Part shown: positions 527 to 33,537 of the stretch, piece by piece | Layout of the letters: each line of letters begins with the position of its first letter | How positions within the stretch are numbered: position 1 is the stretch's first letter | NCBI GenBank assembly: GCA_023667045.1 | Contig: JAMPAU010000004.1 | Coordinates: 62,001-126,000, forward strand | From: Ruminococcus flavefaciens | Lineage (GTDB): Bacteria > Bacillota > Clostridia > Oscillospirales > Ruminococcaceae | Reading direction: 5' to 3' | Length of the DNA stretch: 64,000 nt | Notes under the pieces: model-generated | The model's input: the letters and a program-made list of their open reading frames with translations, nothing else | The model's database searches: none | What the model was told of the DNA's origin: nothing | Translations under genes and position numbers: made by a program

Positions 527-1804
527 TTATCTTTCGATAACCTGACTTCTGTCCGGACCTACGCCTACCATGCTTACATGACAGCCCACGAGTTCTTCAA
601 GGCGTGCGATATATTTTTTGCAGTTTTCAGGGAGTTCGTCAAAGCTTGTGCATTTAGAGATGTCCTCTGTAAAGCCTTCAAATTCCTCATAAACAGGAAT
701 ACAGCCGTCGAGTTCTTCGAGAGCAGGCGGGAAATGTTCAGTAACAGAGCCGTCGGGTTTCTTGTATGCAACGCATATCTTTAAAGTATCAAGACCGGCG
801 AGAGTGTCAAGCTTATTTATAGCGAGACTGTCAAGACCGTTTACTCTTACAGAATGGCGTACAATTACAGCATCAAACCAGCCTGTACGTCTTGGTCTTC
901 CGGTAGTAGTGCCGAACTCACCGCCGACGTTTCTAATCTGGTCGCCTATTTCGTCGTCAAGTTCTGTCGGGAATGGTCCTTTTCCGACACGTGTAGTATA
1001 AGCCTTTGCAACGCCTATAATATTGGTGATTTCCTTAGGACCTATGCCAGTGCCGACACATACGCCGGCAGAAAGCGGGTGTGAGGAAGTTACATACGGA
1101 TACGTTCCAAAATCAATATCAAGCAGGGTAGCCTGTGCGCCCTCAAACATGATAGTCTTTCCGGACTTTGAAGCCTCAAAGGTAAGTACTGAAACGTCGT
1201 CCATGTAAGGCAGAAGTCTCTTTCCGTATTCTGTGTACTCAGCGGTTACAGCGTCGAGGTCGAAAGGCTCACCGCCGTATACTTCTGTGATTATCTTGTT
1301 TTTAAGTTTTCCTGTTGCCTGAATTTTTTCGGCGAGCAGTTCGGGGTGAACAAGGTCAAACATTCTTATACCGCATCTTTCGTACTTGTCCATATATGTA
1401 GGACCGATACCACGCTTTGTAGTGCCTATATCCTTACCGCCACGAAAAGCCTCTGAGAGACCGTCAAGAGCGATATGCCACGGCATAACGATGTGTGCAC
1501 GTGGATCAACTTTCAGGTGTCCTTCTGTCTGGAGACCTCTTTCAGCGAGGCTATCGAGTTCGCCGATAAAATCCTTAGGGTCAAGAACAACACCAGCACC
1601 GATAAGGCAGAGAGTATTCGGGTAGAGAATACCGGACGGAATAAGGTGGAGCTTATAGACTTCACCATTATTTACAACGGTATGACCGGCATTGTTACCG
1701 CCCTGTGAACGTACAACTACATCAGCACGGGAAGCGAGAATATCAATAACTTTACCTTTACCCTCGTCGCCCCACTGAGTTCCTACAACAATATTAGCAG
1801 GCAT
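527..1804 (-). CDS. purA: Adenylosuccinate synthase
   Basis: PurA joins IMP and aspartate using GTP to make adenylosuccinate, the first committed step to AMP. The 425-residue protein opens with VVGTQWGDEGKGK, the GTP/IMP-binding P-loop of the family. It also has GNNAGHTV, the GTTKRGIGP segment near residue 120, TTTGRPRRTGWFDA, and a C-terminal GVGPDR motif. The length matches the usual 420-430. I use ATG 1804, which has an AGAGGAA site about 7 bp upstream. A start 14 codons further upstream is possible but lacks such a site. A good promoter lies just upstream at 1858-1886. The gene is complete with key motifs intact. Confidence 0.97.
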   Translation of the reverse strand: MPANIVVGTQWGDEGKGKVIDILASRADVVVRSQGGNNAGHTVVNNGEVYKLHLIPSGILYPNTLCLIGAGVVLDPKDFIGELDSLAERGLQTEGHLKVDPRAHIVMPWHIALDGLSEAFRGGKDIGTTKRGIGPTYMDKYERCGIRMFDLVHPELLAEKIQATGKLKNKIITEVYGGEPFDLDAVTAEYTEYGKRLLPYMDDVSVLTFEASKSGKTIMFEGAQATLLDIDFGTYPYVTSSHPLSAGVCVGTGIGPKEITNIIGVAKAYTTRVGKGPFPTELDDEIGDQIRNVGGEFGTTTGRPRRTGWFDAVIVRHSVRVNGLDSLAINKLDTLAGLDTLKICVAYKKPDGSVTEHFPPALEELDGCIPVYEEFEGFTEDISKCTSFDELPENCKKYIARLEELVGCHVSMVGVGPDRSQVIER

Positions 1805-1857
1805 TTCATTTCCTCTTTTCATAATAATATTAGTGCTTTTAGGCACACTTACAATTA

Positions 1858-1886
1858 ATTATATCATATAAAAACTTATATTTCAA
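1858..1886 (-). promoter_or_regulatory. Promoter for purA
   Basis: On the minus strand there is TTGAAA, a 17-bp spacer, then TATAAT. It ends about 55 bp before the purA start codon. No purine-riboswitch-like structure is evident in the short leader. Confidence 0.7.
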
Positions 1887-1908
1887 TAGTTTTACGGAAA
1901 AATTTTTG

Positions 1909-2628
1909 TCATTCCAAACCAATATAACTTCCGGGCGTGTAGCCGTCTCCCTCCGGACAGAGCAACCAGCCGTCGCCTCTTATTTCCACTACATAAATCC
2001 AGTATTTGTTTATATCGTAGTCTTCTGACCCCTCTGTGCGAAATTCAACTTTTATTTTGTATGCTGACTTTATGCCCCTTGCCCCGAAATCTTCCGTGTA
2101 CAGTTCGGTTATTTCTTTAGTTTCTGACTGATTGAGGTCTTTTTTGTCAAGAAATTCAACGGAGAGCCTTATATTTTTTCCGTAGTCGAGTTCGAGTGTA
2201 TCTTTTTCTTTTTCAAGACCGTCGTTGAAAGTGCTTATATATTCGTCCCAGTCGGAAGAATTTCCGGTATCTTTTTTAAGCTGTTCTATGTAATCGCTCG
2301 GAAGCATGATTTTCATCATTTTTTCGGAGTTGTTTCTGTTGTATGCACTCACAAAGTCCGTAACAGGCTTTTCATATTCGGGGCGTGTACTTCTCACTAC
2401 CGATTTATCCGTACCACCGCTGAACATAAAAACAATTATTTTTATAAAAGCTATTATTATAACGGCTATGCATACTGCCCCTATGATAAGCTGACGTTTA
2501 TTGGCGACGACAGAGGCTTTTATTTCGTGAGTGACTTCTTTAGGATTCCGGCGAGCCGAAATGCTTTCGGGGCAGTCGCACTGAGTGCCGTCGGAAAGTT
2601 CCTTTCCGCAATACCTGCAAAAATGCAT
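1909..2628 (-). CDS. Zinc-ribbon membrane protein with extracytoplasmic domain
   Basis: The 239-residue protein begins with a short zinc ribbon, CRYCGKEL followed by CDC, typical of the N-terminal 'zinc-ribbon' tags on Gram-positive membrane proteins. One membrane helix follows at about residues 45-68. A roughly 165-residue soluble domain then lies outside the cell; it is rich in Asp/Glu/Lys and its size and helix-strand pattern recall NTF2-like folds. Function is unknown. ATG 2628 has a GGAGG site at proper spacing. A strong promoter precedes it, and the next gene upstream ends in its own terminator, so it looks monocistronic. Confidence 0.8.
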   Translation of the reverse strand: MHFCRYCGKELSDGTQCDCPESISARRNPKEVTHEIKASVVANKRQLIIGAVCIAVIIIAFIKIIVFMFSGGTDKSVVRSTRPEYEKPVTDFVSAYNRNNSEKMMKIMLPSDYIEQLKKDTGNSSDWDEYISTFNDGLEKEKDTLELDYGKNIRLSVEFLDKKDLNQSETKEITELYTEDFGARGIKSAYKIKVEFRTEGSEDYDINKYWIYVVEIRGDGWLLCPEGDGYTPGSYIGLE

Positions 2629-26528: not shown

Positions 26529-27656
26529 ATGTCGGTTTATCTTGATAATGCCTCGACTACAAAGCCATGCAGAGAGGCAGTTGAGGCGGTTATGGAGACG
26601 GTTACGGAAAATTTCGGCAATCCGTCTTCACTGCACAGGGCAGGTCTTAATGCACAGCTTGCTGTAGACAGGGCAAGAAAAATAATAGCAGGTTCGGTAG
26701 GTGCTGACACAGGGGAGATATATTTTACGTCCGGAGCAACGGAGAGTAATAACCTTGCACTGAGGGGTGCTATGGGTGCTTACGGTAAAAGAAAAAACAA
26801 AGTAGTTGTTTCTTCGGTGGAACACGCTTCAGTGGACGAGACTGTTTCCGCACTGGAAAAACAGGGCTTTGAGACTGTCCGTATAAGTCCACGTGAAGAC
26901 GGTCGCTTTTATCTGGAAGACTTTCTGAATGTATGTGACGAAAAAACCTGCATAATAAGCATGATGCTTGTAAACAACGAAACAGGGCATATACTTCCGG
27001 TAGGCGAGACTTTCAAGGCAGTGAAAAAGCGTTTTCCGGAGATAATCACCCACTGCGACTGCGTACAGGGCTATATGAAAGTTCCGGTAAACGTGAAAAA
27101 TCTCAGTGCGGATATGATTTCACTTAGTGGTCACAAGATACACGCCGTCAAGGGTGTCGGTGCTTTATACATTAAAAAAGGTATACGTGTAACGCCCGTT
27201 GTTACCGGCGGACATCAGGAAAAGGGAATACGTTCCGGTACTGAAAGTGTACCGCTTATATCGGCTTTTGGTTCGGCAGTGGAAAAGTACGCTCCTACCA
27301 TTGCAGAACGCTATGAAAAAGTCTCCGGACTGAAAAGACATCTCCTTGACGGATTGTTAGAAATAGACGGCGTGACGATAAATTCTCCGGAAAACGCTTC
27401 GCCTTACGTCGTGAATATATCAGCCGGAAAGCGTTCTGAAATAATGTTGCACTTCATGGAACAGAAAGAAATATACGTTTCAAGCGGTTCGGCGTGTTCA
27501 AAGGGACAGCAGAGCGGTGTGCTGGGACAGTTTGGCATAAAGGGAAAAAACGCTGACAGTGCCTTGCGTATCAGCATGACCGCCGATACAACTACAGAAG
27601 AACTTGATGTATTTATAGACGCTCTCCGTGAGGGCATGGAAAAAATAAGAGGTTAA
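26529..27656 (+). CDS. Cysteine desulfurase (NifS/IscS family, paired with ThiI)
   Basis: This PLP enzyme takes sulfur from cysteine and passes it on as persulfide. The 375-residue protein shows VYLDNASTTKP at the N-terminus, the PLP lysine in SLSGHKIHAVKG near residue 200, and the catalytic Cys in SSGSACSKG near residue 323. ATG 26529 begins the conserved N-terminus; the upstream open frame is probably untranslated. It is followed 21 bp later by thiI, so, as with NifZ-ThiI in B. subtilis, it is probably the dedicated sulfur donor for 4-thiouridine in tRNA. Confidence 0.94.
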   Translation: MSVYLDNASTTKPCREAVEAVMETVTENFGNPSSLHRAGLNAQLAVDRARKIIAGSVGADTGEIYFTSGATESNNLALRGAMGAYGKRKNKVVVSSVEHASVDETVSALEKQGFETVRISPREDGRFYLEDFLNVCDEKTCIISMMLVNNETGHILPVGETFKAVKKRFPEIITHCDCVQGYMKVPVNVKNLSADMISLSGHKIHAVKGVGALYIKKGIRVTPVVTGGHQEKGIRSGTESVPLISAFGSAVEKYAPTIAERYEKVSGLKRHLLDGLLEIDGVTINSPENASPYVVNISAGKRSEIMLHFMEQKEIYVSSGSACSKGQQSGVLGQFGIKGKNADSALRISMTADTTTEELDVFIDALREGMEKIRG

Positions 27657-27677: not shown

Positions 27678-28856
27678 ATGAAAGAAATTGTACTTGTAAA
27701 ATATGGTGAAATGGTTCTCAAGGGACTGAATAAAAAGTCTTTCGAGGATATGCTTACAAAAAACATAAAACGCCGTCTGAAAAGTTTAGGACATTTTCAG
27801 CTTACGTCGGCACAGTCAACAACATATATCACACCGCTTGACGACAATGCGGATTTGGAGGAAGTAGTTGACCGTGTGGGTAAGATTTTCGGTATATCTG
27901 CACTGTGCCGTGCTTGCATATGCGAAAAGGATTTCGGCGATATAACAGAAAAAAGCCTTGAATACCTCAATGAAGTTCTCAGCGGAGCTAAGACTTTCAA
28001 GGTAAATGCAAAGCGTTCAGACAAGGCATTTCATATGAAGTCGCCGGAAATATGTGCTGAACTCGGCGGTATACTGCTTGAAAAGTTCCCGAACCTTACT
28101 GTTGACGTAAAAAATCCGGAAGTTACAGTTACCGTTGAAATCCGTGATACAAACGCTTACGTCCATGCCGAAAATATAAAGGGAGCAGGCGGTCTGCCGG
28201 TGGGAAGCAGTGGAAAGGCAATGCTGTTATTGTCGGGTGGTATAGACAGTCCGGTTGCCGGATATATGATGGCAAAAAGAGGCGTACACATTTCGGCTAT
28301 ACATTATGTAAGTCCGCCGTATACTTCCGACAGGGCATTGATGAAAGTAGAGCAGTTATGCGAAAAACTCACCGACTATTGCGGTGGTGTAGCATTTTTC
28401 TGTGTGCCTTTCACTGAGATACAGGAGGCTATAAAAGACAACTGCCCCGAAGAATATTTCACTATTATAATGCGTCGTCTTATGATGGAGATAGCACAGA
28501 GAATATGCGAAAAGGACAACTGCCTTGCCTTGATTACCGGCGAGAGCGTGGGACAGGTTGCAAGCCAGACCATGTCGGCTATAGCCTGTACTGACGCAGT
28601 GTGCAGAATACCTGTATTCCGTCCGCTTGTGGGTATGGATAAGACAGAGATTATCGAGATTGCACGAAAGATAGATACTTTTGAAACTTCCGTGCTTCCG
28701 TATGAGGATTGCTGTACTGTATTCACGCCACGCCACCCGAAAGTAAGACCTTTACTTTCTGATGTTGAAAAGGCTCAGAATAATTTTGACTTTGAACCGC
28801 TTATACAGAAAGCCGTTGAAAATACTGAAATGAAGACCTTTACTTATTCAAAGTAA
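27678..28856 (+). CDS. thiI: tRNA 4-thiouridine synthetase ThiI
   Basis: ThiI adenylates U8 of tRNA and transfers sulfur to make 4-thiouridine, a UV-sensor base. The 392-residue protein has an N-terminal ferredoxin-like/THUMP region, then the PP-loop LLSGGIDSPVAGYMMAKRG near residue 183, and ends after the pyrophosphatase domain. It lacks the rhodanese domain of E. coli ThiI, as in other Firmicutes, so the neighbouring desulfurase should deliver sulfur directly. ATG 27678 has AAAGGA 9 bp upstream. Confidence 0.95.
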   Translation: MKEIVLVKYGEMVLKGLNKKSFEDMLTKNIKRRLKSLGHFQLTSAQSTTYITPLDDNADLEEVVDRVGKIFGISALCRACICEKDFGDITEKSLEYLNEVLSGAKTFKVNAKRSDKAFHMKSPEICAELGGILLEKFPNLTVDVKNPEVTVTVEIRDTNAYVHAENIKGAGGLPVGSSGKAMLLLSGGIDSPVAGYMMAKRGVHISAIHYVSPPYTSDRALMKVEQLCEKLTDYCGGVAFFCVPFTEIQEAIKDNCPEEYFTIIMRRLMMEIAQRICEKDNCLALITGESVGQVASQTMSAIACTDAVCRIPVFRPLVGMDKTEIIEIARKIDTFETSVLPYEDCCTVFTPRHPKVRPLLSDVEKAQNNFDFEPLIQKAVENTEMKTFTYSK

Positions 28857-29087: not shown

Positions 29088-30851
29088 ATGAAAGATAATT
29101 TGAATGATGTTATTCCTGAAAGCACTCAGGATAAAAATGATAAACTTAATGAAATTCTTAATTCGGTAGACAGCAAATTACAGCCGGAAAGTAATGTTTC
29201 CAGCTGGGAAGATGAGCTTACTTCAGTTATCGAAAAGCGTTCTCATAAATCGGATATTGAAGAAATCCTCAGTGAGATTTCCTCAGAGCCGGAAAAAGAA
29301 ATATCTGCTCCGGAAGTGGCAGACGAGGAATTTCAGCAGAATGACGTGCAGGAACTTGTCTCTCAGATTACTGTAGGAAAAAAAGTCAGCGAACTTAGTG
29401 AACAGAAAAAAATGCTTGCCGAAGAAAATGAAAAGCCGTCTGAAACTTTGGAAGAAGTTACAGAGAATACGAAAACAGCAGAAGAATCTGATAATACTGT
29501 TGATACTGTACAAGAAGTTACAGAAGAACCGGCAGTACAGGAAAATCCGGAAGTTCACAGCGAAACACCAACAACTGAAGATGTTTCCGGTCAGGAAAAG
29601 GCACAGACACTTGTATATAATGTACCACGCAGAAAAGCACCGGAGAGTGTTGTTCGTGCTACTGTTGCAAGTACTCCTGTGGCACAGGTAAGAAAACCTG
29701 TAAAGAAAATAGTAAGGGTTGACAAAGCTAAATCTTCTGAACCCCATAAGCCCGAACAGCCTGTTAAAAGAAACATTCCGGAGCAGGCACGTGTCAATAT
29801 GAGGAATGAAAAGAATATCCCGAAACAGAAAAAGAAAAAGTCTGTTAAGGAAAAATTTATTGATTTATTCCCTCAGAAACAAGACCCCGCTCTTGAAAAA
29901 GTCCGCAAGGTTGTTTTTATGTGTTCGATATGTGCTATAGTAGTGTGCGGTTATATGGTCGGGGATTATTATATTGACCTCGGAAAGAGTAAAAGCCTTC
30001 ACGACGAAATCGAAAGTATATATGAACCTTATAATCCTCCGGTACAGGCACAAAATGTAGCAACTATTTACGAGCCGGACTATGAACGTACTTACACTAT
30101 GCTTGACGGTGCAAAGAAACTTCTTGACATGAACCCCGATGTAGTAGGTTATATAACTATCCCTAATACTCCGGTGGCAAATCCTGTTATGCAGTCGGGT
30201 GATAATTCAAAGTACCTTGACCAGAATATAAACGGCGACAGTTCAAGGGCAGGTGAGCTTTTCCTTGACTACAGAAATAACTTTGACAGGGTAGTTGACG
30301 GTAAACTAAGCGTTGCCAATTCCGACAATCTTGTTATTTATGGTCACAATATGAAAAACGACGAGATGTTTGGCAGTCTTAAATATTATCAGCGTAACTA
30401 TAATTACTATAATGATAATCCTGTTATCTATTTGAACTCCAACTATGAATGCTATACATATAAAATATTCTCATACTTTATCCTTGACGCTCTCGACGAA
30501 TCGGAAACAGCTTACGACTGCTGGAATAAGTTTGATTTCGACGACGAGGAAGATTTCTATAATTTCGTGAATGAGGCAAAAAAGAGAAGTCTCGGTCTTA
30601 ATGATGTTGACGTGAAGTATGGCGACAAGCTTTTGACACTCTCAACCTGCAATACTATTTTAGGTGACAGGGGTCGTCTTATCGTTATGGGAAGACTTCT
30701 CAGAGATGGTGAGGACGCAAGACAGGGTACAGAAAAAAATGTGCAGAATGCTAATGTAAAATGGCCCTCTATATATTATCAGCAGAAACCAAATGAAAAA
30801 TATAATCCAGATGCAGAATTTATTCCGTATGGTCCTAACGAGGAGGAATAA
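29088..30851 (+). CDS. Class B sortase with long cytoplasmic N-terminal region
   Basis: Sortases cleave sorting signals and attach proteins to the cell wall. The 587-residue protein has an unusually long, acidic then basic N-terminal region (1-270) with no predicted fold, one membrane helix at about 274-296, and an outer class B sortase domain. Catalytic residues are H420 (VIYGHNM), C521 (TLSTC) and R530. Typical class B sortases are about 240-260 residues, so over half of this protein is extra and should be cytoplasmic. It heads an operon with a second sortase and a SpoIID-like protein. No sorting-signal substrate is evident in the window. Confidence 0.88.
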   Translation: MKDNLNDVIPESTQDKNDKLNEILNSVDSKLQPESNVSSWEDELTSVIEKRSHKSDIEEILSEISSEPEKEISAPEVADEEFQQNDVQELVSQITVGKKVSELSEQKKMLAEENEKPSETLEEVTENTKTAEESDNTVDTVQEVTEEPAVQENPEVHSETPTTEDVSGQEKAQTLVYNVPRRKAPESVVRATVASTPVAQVRKPVKKIVRVDKAKSSEPHKPEQPVKRNIPEQARVNMRNEKNIPKQKKKKSVKEKFIDLFPQKQDPALEKVRKVVFMCSICAIVVCGYMVGDYYIDLGKSKSLHDEIESIYEPYNPPVQAQNVATIYEPDYERTYTMLDGAKKLLDMNPDVVGYITIPNTPVANPVMQSGDNSKYLDQNINGDSSRAGELFLDYRNNFDRVVDGKLSVANSDNLVIYGHNMKNDEMFGSLKYYQRNYNYYNDNPVIYLNSNYECYTYKIFSYFILDALDESETAYDCWNKFDFDDEEDFYNFVNEAKKRSLGLNDVDVKYGDKLLTLSTCNTILGDRGRLIVMGRLLRDGEDARQGTEKNVQNANVKWPSIYYQQKPNEKYNPDAEFIPYGPNEEE

Positions 30852-30856
30852 TTAAT

Positions 30857-31840
30857 ATGAAAATTGCAAAGATTATTTCTATATTTTCGGCGTGCGTGGC
30901 GGTAGTGTCCATATCTGCCTCTGTACTCATGATGAGACAGAAAGACGACGATTTTTATATTCCTACTGCTGTCGCCAATGATAACGTTGATGAATACAGT
31001 TATGAACCGCAGACAGAAGTATACATACCGGAAGAAACTACTACTGAACAGTCCGAGCCGGAAACGGAAGCAGAAACTGAATATGATTCAATGGACTTTC
31101 CGGTTTATGATTATGTGCCGTCCAATTCCGGAATGACAGAACAGGCAAAACTTCTGATGAAACAAAATGACGATGTTGTGGGCTGGCTTAAAATAAACAA
31201 TACTCAGATTGATTATCCGCTTCTTAAAGACCCTGGAGATATTACCCCAAATACTGGCTATGGCAGTGAGTTTGTTGAATATAATGAATTTTATCTGCAC
31301 CATAATATGAACAGGCAGTATCTCTTTGAGGGCAATATATACATGGACTGCCGTGATAATTTCGGCAGTGATGAAGACCAGCAGTCCGAAAATATAGTTA
31401 TTTACGGTCACAATATGCTCAACGGCTCACAGTTTGGTAATCTCCGACTATATAAAGACACAAGCTATTACTGGACAAATCCATTTGTATATCTCAGTTC
31501 AAATTACAAAGACTATGAGTATGTTATAGTTTCTTTCTGCATAACAAGCGGAAACGCAGACACGGATTTCAGATACTGGGATATGGAAGAACTCGACACA
31601 AAGGCAGATTTCGACTATTACGTGAACAGAATAAAGCGTGACCAGTTGCTTGATACCGGAGTTGACATAAAATACGGCGACAAACTACTTACTCTTTCCA
31701 CTTGCCATGCCGATGCGGACAATACAAGGTTTATTGTTCTTGCAAGAAGACTGAGGGACGGCGAGATTGCCGGTGATATGTCAACCATACAGAAAACCGC
31801 TCCGTTAGTACAGAACCGCAGAAAGACGGTTAAAAAATAA
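30857..31840 (+). CDS. Class B sortase (second copy)
   Basis: The 327-residue protein has an N-terminal signal anchor (residues 5-25), a Thr/Glu-rich linker to about 85, and a class B sortase domain with H185 (IVIYGHNM), C283 (TLSTCHAD) and R291. It resembles the preceding sortase in the catalytic half but lacks the long cytoplasmic region, so the pair probably arose by duplication and then diverged. It starts 5 bp after the first sortase and ends 13 bp before the SpoIID-like gene. Confidence 0.9.
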   Translation: MKIAKIISIFSACVAVVSISASVLMMRQKDDDFYIPTAVANDNVDEYSYEPQTEVYIPEETTTEQSEPETEAETEYDSMDFPVYDYVPSNSGMTEQAKLLMKQNDDVVGWLKINNTQIDYPLLKDPGDITPNTGYGSEFVEYNEFYLHHNMNRQYLFEGNIYMDCRDNFGSDEDQQSENIVIYGHNMLNGSQFGNLRLYKDTSYYWTNPFVYLSSNYKDYEYVIVSFCITSGNADTDFRYWDMEELDTKADFDYYVNRIKRDQLLDTGVDIKYGDKLLTLSTCHADADNTRFIVLARRLRDGEIAGDMSTIQKTAPLVQNRRKTVKK

Positions 31841-31853
31841 CAAGGAGAAAATT

Positions 31854-33176
31854 ATGAAGACAAAGATATTTAAACGCATTCCTGCATTTATGTCCGCAGT
31901 GCTGATGTGTTCGGTGGCTGTATGCGGACAGTATGCTTATGCGGTCAGCGAAGATGTGCCGGATATGCCATACAATTACGGCGACCCGTACAATACGGAA
32001 GACACTACTGAACCAAATATACAGGAGGATATTCTTACTCCTGTCACAACTGAAGTCTCCGACGGTACTGTAGTTGATATTACTATACCACAGGACGATG
32101 AAACGGCTGTCCCTCTTGATACAGCACCGGTACAGTCAAACAGCAGAAAAAAAGCCTCTGTAAAAGACTATGATTCAAGTCTTTCTGCTGTAAGCTATGA
32201 ATTTTCATATCCGGAATACACGTATGAAGAAGATTTTTCCAACTATACTACCGGTCAGCAGTATGAGCAGGCTAAAAAAGATATGATAGTTTCTTTCCGC
32301 ACTGCAAACCCTGTTACATCGGTAAAGCGTGACGAAGGTGAAGACCCTGCTCAGTTCGGACACGTAGGGGAAATTCCGGTTCCTCACGAACAGGACGTAT
32401 CTTCAGATATGTCCGGAGAATTTACCTTTGTGACATACGGCTGGGGTCACGGCGTGGGAATGAGCCAGAACGGTGCGGACTTCTATGCGACATATGCCGG
32501 TTGGTCGTATCAGGATATTTTAGCACATTACTACCCGAATACCTACCTTATGAATACAGGTCTCACAGACTATGAAGAACTCACTATTAACGGTGAACCT
32601 GCCGGAGATACCGTTTCTGTTGTAGCACAGATTGTAAACAGGGAAATCGGCGGTTCTATGAACTATGAGGCTATAAAGGCACAGGCTGTTGCAGTATATA
32701 CGTACCTAAAATATCATGACGACGACTCAGCAGACCTTCTCGGCAAGCCCGACCCTCCGCAAGTTGTCATTGACGCTTGCACGGACGTTCTCGGTGAAGC
32801 CCTCTACTACAACGGCAGTTACGCCCTCACTATGTTCTCTGCCTCAACAGGCGGTTGCACTGCAAACTGCGGTGAGGTATTCTATGCTGATATTCCCTAT
32901 CTGATAAGCGTGCCGAGCGATTACGACGAACTTTATGACCCGCACTACGGCACGGTTACATATTATCCTGCATCTGAGGTTAAAAGGCTTATCGAGGCTG
33001 AATATAAGATAACACTTTCCGACGACCCTGGAAACTGGATTCAGCCGACATACTCCACACAGACAGGATACGTTACAGATGTAAATATAGACAATCAGAT
33101 TTCCATAAGAGGATATGAACTGAAATTACTGCTTGACCTGAAGTCTTCAAAGTTCAATCTTACATATACCTATTAA
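31854..33176 (+). CDS. SpoIID/LytB-like protein with circularly permuted domain
   Basis: SpoIID is a lytic transglycosylase that cuts denuded glycan strands during sporulation. The 440-residue protein has a signal peptide (about 1-30), a low-complexity linker to about 185, and then SpoIID motifs in shifted order. GWGHGVGMSQNGA (196-208) with YQDILAHYYPNT, normally C-terminal, comes first. The catalytic-type VNREIGG (E264), YEAIKAQAVAVYTY and SASTGGC (329-335) follow. The C-terminus ends LLLDLKSSKFNLTY, which in normal SpoIID leads into the GHGVGMSQ block. All motifs seem intact. It is the third gene of the sortase operon. Confidence 0.85.
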   Translation: MKTKIFKRIPAFMSAVLMCSVAVCGQYAYAVSEDVPDMPYNYGDPYNTEDTTEPNIQEDILTPVTTEVSDGTVVDITIPQDDETAVPLDTAPVQSNSRKKASVKDYDSSLSAVSYEFSYPEYTYEEDFSNYTTGQQYEQAKKDMIVSFRTANPVTSVKRDEGEDPAQFGHVGEIPVPHEQDVSSDMSGEFTFVTYGWGHGVGMSQNGADFYATYAGWSYQDILAHYYPNTYLMNTGLTDYEELTINGEPAGDTVSVVAQIVNREIGGSMNYEAIKAQAVAVYTYLKYHDDDSADLLGKPDPPQVVIDACTDVLGEALYYNGSYALTMFSASTGGCTANCGEVFYADIPYLISVPSDYDELYDPHYGTVTYYPASEVKRLIEAEYKITLSDDPGNWIQPTYSTQTGYVTDVNIDNQISIRGYELKLLLDLKSSKFNLTYTY

Positions 33177-33181
33177 AATAT

Positions 33182-33243
33182 AATAAGTCTTTGGACGTAC
33201 GGCGTTTTTCTGTCTGTGCGTTCAGGGGCTTATTCGCTTTTTA
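33182..33243 (+). terminator. Probable terminator after the SpoIID-like gene
   Basis: Arms AATAAG/CTTATT and TGGACG/CGTTCA form an imperfect long hairpin, followed within 4 bp by TTTTT. Between here and the rsmH promoter (33244-33396) I see nothing definite. Confidence 0.5.
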
Positions 33244-33396
33244 TTCTGTGCGTACAGTTAAAATTTTTATATGGGTAAAATAAATTAATAAATATCGGGA
33301 ACGTGTGTTCTGTAATTATGCGGTCTTGAATGTTTTTTGGAAATATTACCGGAAAACGCTGTGAAATTTAGGTTGACAATTGTGCATTATTACATC

Positions 33397-33425
33397 TTGA
33401 TAATTTGTCTGTTAGGTTGTATAAT
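33397..33425 (+). promoter_or_regulatory. Promoter for the division and cell wall cluster
   Basis: TTGATA, 17 bp, TATAAT. A second TTGACA lies upstream at 33373 without a well-spaced -10. The leader before rsmH is about 105 bases; it reads open but lacks a start with a ribosome site. Confidence 0.7.
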
Positions 33426-33537
33426 TAATGTAGGTGAAAAAATTTTTTCGCCTTTAAGTCAGGAGCGTAAAGAGGCAGGACTTTTCATATCGTTTCCGGC
33501 ATTCTGCTCTTATTATGAAAGTCAGGAGATTTGTTTT

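Follow-up and report, generated by a model that had tools for sequence, protein, structure and literature searches.

In SpoIID proteins the block that runs from GHGVGMSQ to HYYPNT is C-terminal, and in one protein of Ruminococcus flavefaciens it comes first, ahead of the part that holds the catalytic Glu. The questions raised by this locus are whether the protein carries a circularly permuted domain and, if so, where and how often the order was changed. The gene was studied in a stretch of 64,000 nucleotides (the window), taken from a genome of 3.64 Mb assembled as a draft of 112 contigs. Its ATG lies at 31854 and its stop at 33174-33176, with an AAGGAG site at 31842-31847; start, stop and upstream site, as read in the sequence, show the coordinates and frame first assigned to the open reading frame (ORF) to be exact. 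The gene has the following features:

31854..33176, + strand: permuted SpoIID/LytB-domain protein, 440 aa (from the ORF and from profile and sequence comparisons)
31854..31943, + strand: probable signal peptide, residues 1-30 (...QYAYA), judged by eye
32148..32201, + strand: N-terminal motif KKASVKDYDSSLSAVSYE, residues 99-116
32412..32555, + strand: segment C, residues 187-234, the GHGVGMSQ ... HYYPNT block, C-terminal in canonical SpoIID and here first
32556..32573, + strand: linker TGLTDY, residues 235-240, joining the old C-terminus to the old N-terminus
32574..33167, + strand: segment N, residues 241-438, with Glu264, EAIKAQAV, STGG and the strand DLKSSKFNLTY; N-terminal in canonical SpoIID and here last

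The individual motifs are GWGHGVGMSQ (residues 196-205), HYYPNT (225-230), NREIGG (262-267), EAIKAQAV (272-279) and STGG (331-334); the Glu264 codon is 32643-32645, and DLKSSKFNLTY ends 2 residues short of the C-terminus. The protein is probably secreted.

Known profiles match this domain in pieces. TIGR02669, the profile of the SpoIID/LytB family (LytB being an amidase enhancer), scores 106.9 bits against a cut-off of 83.3, in two stretches of swapped order, whereas the canonical proteins L105, L107 and L001 each match it in a single stretch. The SpoIID equivalog TIGR02870 also matches in two stretches, at 109.3 bits against a cut-off of 234.75, and Pfam SpoIID (PF08486) reaches 25.6 bits against 23 with just 37 residues matched (257-293). 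According to HMMER, the only PDB sequences with an E-value below 0.1 are those of SpoIID (5i1t, 5txu, and 4rwr), each matched in three stretches of shuffled order; residues 256-291, 307-438 and 188-232 of the window protein correspond to 69-104, 149-280 and 283-326 of 5i1t. Neither the two TIGR profiles nor the PDB sequences give a single end-to-end match in canonical order. The window protein shares all conserved blocks with the SpoIID of sporulating Firmicutes (the catalytic Glu, KAQ, S.GG, and GHG), but differs from it in block order, in its TIGR02870 score, in the absence of the zinc turn of C. difficile SpoIID, and in having a host with a separate SpoIID. Since the family profiles under-score permuted proteins (37 residues for PF08486, 109 bits for TIGR02870), such members are easily filed as fragments.

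The order of the two segments was typed with iterated profiles, in which segment C is residues 187-234 and segment N residues 241-438 of the window protein. Among the first loci, 137 ORFs hold both segments, 88 of them permuted and 49 canonical, and later loci added 38 (23 permuted, 15 canonical), redundancy being included in both sets; in every one of the 137 and 38, each segment is present once. Collapsed to distinct forms of segment C together with its approach, the set amounts to 77 permuted and 52 canonical. L003 was typed canonical by the segment profiles and was disregarded, as its two segment matches are weak and overlapping. A profile of 49 proteins, all of them canonical, was then used to score rotations of 12 hand-picked proteins, namely the window protein, 7 other permuted proteins and 4 canonical controls. 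The window domain scores 176.4 bits in its native order and 264.5 bits when rotated at the linker, against a median of 184.6 bits for all rotations; the rotated score resembles that of the host's own SpoIID (261 bits). Rotation at the linker restores an end-to-end match (positions 11-244 of 246), and the block order is thus that of a clean circular permutation, as had been proposed. For the 7 other permuted proteins, drawn from all three permuted lineages described below, rotation gains about 80-91 bits, and the best rotation of each of the 4 canonical controls, left out of its own model, lies 0-3 residues from the natural order. These sequence comparisons support the original prediction of a circularly permuted SpoIID/LytB domain.

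A search for other proteins of this order, suggested at the outset, found it nearly universal in the genus and in two further lineages. A strong match (E 5e-79 or better) is present in 39 of the 40 genomes of the genus, own included, the exception being G035 (88% complete, 440 contigs), and the matches among named genomes are mostly Ruminococcus. All 20 genus loci listed, own included, are permuted. In a scan of 36 related loci, 34 were permuted, L087 was canonical, and L081, which begins within the gene, was untypeable; an in-frame TAG lies inside the matched stretch of one permuted relative (G065). At the level of the family, at least 16 of 148 genomes have the permuted form (3 of the genus, own included, and 13 others, with 30 listed loci typed). 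A second permuted group, in family f24, emerged among relatives of G386, which is itself permuted: a junction-spanning match was found in 14 of 59 genomes, and all 14 typed as permuted. The third lineage is represented by L099 (G040).

To gauge wider spread, a junction profile (A2) was run at a threshold of E 1e-17, which may miss divergent permutants; the permuted G386 and f24 genera give no A2 match in the class sample. Besides the window, a stop-free junction-spanning match was obtained in 1 of 391 genomes of the class (G815) and in 0 of 299 of the phylum, own counted in both. Two apparent further cases, G922 and G485, were set aside as having stops and canonical order. The permuted protein of G815 (L127, L188) groups with f24, the genome being assigned to another family, and no counterpart of L127 was found in 59 other genomes searched (E 1e-12); it is possibly a mis-binned contig or a transfer. 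In a mobile-element check, plasmids and phages gave one record each, with the best match inside segment N only.

The chromosomal surroundings bear on where the order changed. Immediately upstream of the permuted gene the window contains:

26535..27656, + strand: nifS-like cysteine desulfurase, slot marker (TIGR03402 328.8 bits, below cut-off)
27678..28856, + strand: thiI, slot marker
29088..30851, + strand: class B sortase-like protein 1, conserved block (TIGR03064 157.5 bits, cut-off 153.75)
30857..31840, + strand: class B sortase-like protein 2 (TIGR03064 111.6 bits, below cut-off; Pfam Sortase 35.6 against 26.6)

The second sortase-like gene ends 13 bases before the permuted gene, which is followed by rsmH, an unnamed gene, a gene for a SpoVD-like PBP (below its profile cut-off), and murE. 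In other genera, ten permuted loci (L088-L091, L093-L098) have thiI upstream together with one or two genes of sortase type, and 7 of these 10 also have a nifS-like gene; L092, a contig of 4195 bases, has only a sortase-like gene upstream. No rsmH was found in the fetched stretch of L088-L098, and rsmH as a neighbor may therefore be confined to the genus. The nifS-thiI-sortase slot also holds the permuted genes of L099 and of f24 (L179-L183); nifS and thiI were not found in the fetched stretches of L184, L185, L187 and L188. Between the permuted gene and rsmH, mraZ is present in 20 of the 36 subjects searched (the window and L052-L086). By tblastn it has no match in the window (33177-33537) or in L052-L054, L056, L058, L059, L073, L077, L081 and L082; these ten loci and the window all reach rsmH, and the other 5 of the 36 lack the stretch.

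The same slot is occupied by a gene of normal order in the canonical relatives L104, L105, L107, L186 and L189. Of the other canonical loci, L100, L102 and L103 have sortase-like neighbors but lack nifS and thiI in the stretch, and in L101 and L106 neither kind of neighbor is seen. Because canonical-order genes sit in the same slot, the domain was probably re-cut in place, that is, its order changed within positional orthologues. In addition, a WWKA/WKA form of the N-terminal motif, upstream of the domain, is shared by several permuted genera with the canonical L121 and L125, and a looser version of it occurs in 58 of 85 permuted ORFs vs. 1 of 55 canonical ones; this distribution hints at an N-terminal tether that was retained through the re-cutting of the domain. 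The canonical-order relatives in the same slot and the two additional permuted lineages are new relative to the original prediction. Having both orders at one chromosomal spot, evolution appears to have moved the ends of an enzyme, perhaps more than once.

In a tree of 78 rows, the main permuted clade (100/99), the f24 clade with L127 (99/96) and L099 stand apart, and canonical rows, among them L174 of f24 and the canonical proteins of f1, fall between them. The main permuted clade joins 11 canonical rows, including L105, L121 and L125 (94/91). This tree needs 3 order changes, of which the well-supported branches alone force 2, and none of 200 bootstrap trees joins all permuted rows. All of this counts against the most serious alternative, in which the order was permuted once, in an old duplicate at the locus, and loss or transfer sorted the canonical and permuted forms; we nevertheless regard that history as a credible one, its likelihood being somewhat less than even. 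It fits the use of the same cut in all three lineages and the similar linkers of the main and f24 rows shown (4-6 and 0-10 residues), and an AU test of a single permuted clade gives p 0.083 with 65 rows and 0.037 with 78, the pairwise values being 0.054 (main with f24), 0.066 (main with L099) and 0.303 (f24 with L099) for groups named after the first tree was seen, L099 being a single long row. Segment C does not separate the readings, as its mean identity in the main permuted clade is 0.550 to f24, 0.551 to L099 and 0.548 to canonical relatives. On the other hand, segment N of the main clade is nearer to canonical relatives (0.343) than to f24 (0.300) or L099 (0.291), in a comparison that, for both segments, includes redundant rows and in which L136, a copy of L127, is mis-grouped, so that its maximum values were disregarded; L099 is no closer to canonical relatives (identity 0.299) than to SpoIID proper (0.301). 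The segment N values agree with a separate origin of the main clade. Repeated permutation is thus favored over a single origin, with a marginal AU rejection of the latter (p 0.037). Our tentative reading, whose chance we put only just short of even, is that the domain underwent permutation on three or more separate occasions, always at the same turn, among SpoIID-like proteins of a single bacterial order, with members of each of the three lineages at the nifS-thiI-sortase locus. As part of that tentative reading, repeated re-cutting at one locus would look as if selection favors turning the catalytic groove relative to the tether.

Conservation was assessed in 80 distinct permuted domains (64 of the main clade, 15 of f24 with L127, and L099). 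Glu264 is present in 80 of 80 and KAQ in 79, with one KTQ. The expectation that all motifs are kept holds for the window protein and, nearly throughout, for the 64 distinct proteins of its clade: Glu264 and KAQ occur in 64 of 64, S.GG in 61 and GHG in 60 (three GHC, one not read). In the two additional lineages GHG is found in 16 of 16 and S.GG is not kept as such, occurring in 0 of 15 f24 domains (mostly.AG there) and being absent from L099. Both halves of the permuted protein are under purifying selection, which, with its presence nearly throughout the genus, shows that the order is no product of chance. In 5 pairs, dN/dS is about 0.01-0.06 in segments C and N where dS is finite (segment N, dN 0.023-0.085 and dS 1.0-1.6; segment C, dN 0.017-0.034 and dS 0.85 to saturated), and residues 229-250 around the linker are similarly held (dN 0.04-0.06, dS 1.3 to saturated); residues 96-184 are looser (dN 0.11-0.23, dS 0.73-1.8).

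SpoIID activity depends on an active-site Glu (PMC6635528), and Glu101 of C. difficile SpoIID is required for glycan cleavage (PMC6221140). In the HMMER comparison with PDB sequences this Glu101 aligns with Glu264 of the window protein. The C. difficile enzyme also has a zinc site needed for stability, for which Cys140 is necessary (PMC6221140). The zinc turn is missing from the window protein, which has 15 residues instead of 44 between the aligned stretches. This absence would suit a non-catalytic protein, one that binds the wall or acts as a scaffold within a SpoIID shell, yet the catalytic Glu is invariant in the permuted domains, and the zinc turn is described as peculiar to C. difficile SpoIID, structures having been solved of both that protein and the SpoIID of B. 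anthracis (PMC6221140); we consider this alternative unlikely. The zinc-turn region is, by eye, also short in the canonical-order relatives.

The host genome encodes a canonical SpoIID (L001, 276.3 bits with TIGR02870 against the cut-off of 234.75) and SpoIIP; its other match to a SpoIID domain, L003, has a weak SpoIID-like part before what appear by eye to be repeat units. Because the host keeps a normal SpoIID and SpoIIP, the permuted protein is probably a vegetative, sortase-linked lytic transglycosylase. A partnership with the sortases is supported by relatives that carry both on one chain, L190 (5883-8801, by Pfam) and L186 (by TIGR03064 and TIGR02669), and from synteny and these fusions we infer that the permuted SpoIID works with the adjacent sortases. 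Taken together, it is very probable that the gene encodes a secreted protein of the SpoIID/LytB superfamily, a vegetative lytic transglycosylase whose catalytic domain was circularly permuted, in place, from a canonical ancestor. In the proposed mechanism, the permuted domain most likely adopts the groove of the normal enzyme, in which Glu264 would be the catalytic residue, and would cut glycan strands in vegetative cells from a re-oriented tether, alongside the class B sortases, while the separate canonical SpoIID and SpoIIP would serve sporulation. Some canonical relatives share a chain with a CinA or a sortase part (L104, L186): CinA is joined to the SpoIID domain in L104:4559-7696, and to a sortase in L099:3340-6228. 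In f24, one permuted SpoIID-like protein (L185:7196-8596) includes a type I dockerin (27.9 bits against a cut-off of 22.9), suggestive of a connection with the cellulosome.

The site of the cut bears on how the permuted chain would fold. In canonical relatives, segment N ends in an apparent strand (e.g., LKSASFDISY) that leads through a short turn into the strand of GHGVGMSQ, strands and turn being read from the sequence pattern; DLKSSKFNLTY is thus the segment that normally enters GHGVGMSQ, as was first noted. In all three permuted groups the two ends of the chain fall at this turn, and some chains continue into a tail. The gap between the segments measures 6 residues in the window protein and 15 in L050 and L099; among the rows shown it is 4-6 for the rest of the main clade and 0-10 for f24. 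In L192 (G016; ORF 539-1966, minus strand) the join is extended, relative to the window, by 96 in-frame residues with a high content of Thr, Pro and Glu, which suggests that the new linker is a surface loop. That segments C and N instead form a domain-swapped dimer or two partial domains, and no single permuted monomer, is quite improbable, given that every block is there, the linker is short, constraint is strong, the cut falls in a turn, and L192 tolerates its extra residues at the join. An assembly or gene-calling artefact, for which only the draft state of the assembly (112 contigs) could be cited, is refuted by the recurrence of the permuted order in dozens of independent assemblies, including R. 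flavefaciens YL228, ND2009, 007c, and SAb67, and retains virtually no probability. Circular permutation in place would have opened the chain at the turn that precedes the strand of GHGVGMSQ, with some six residues linking the old ends. What was permuted was most likely a SpoIID-like protein of canonical order that already stood at this nifS-thiI-sortase locus. On the usual route to such a change, which may have been taken here, a domain is duplicated in tandem, after which one copy loses its first half and the other its second; no duplication intermediates were found among the 137 and 38 ORFs holding both segments, many of them redundant.

In open-licence PMC papers, no description was found of a permuted SpoIID or of a sortase and SpoIID-like module of gut and rumen Firmicutes; a paper on an outer-membrane proteome was set aside, as it mentions permutation only in connection with a statistical test. 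The locus points to such a module, besides the SpoIID of sporulation. Natural circular permutations with the states before and after in one slot are good material for studying how a fold is re-cut, since relatives in both orders make it possible to locate the event in a phylogeny and to measure what it does to activity. In two near relatives (L059:4983-6617 and L007:967-2601), the permuted SpoIID ORF contains a PBP-like stretch in its N-terminal part. It resembles residues 79-196 of the SpoVD-like PBP, with 76% identity to that of the window, and looks like a copy taken from the PBP gene, which lies about 2 kb downstream.
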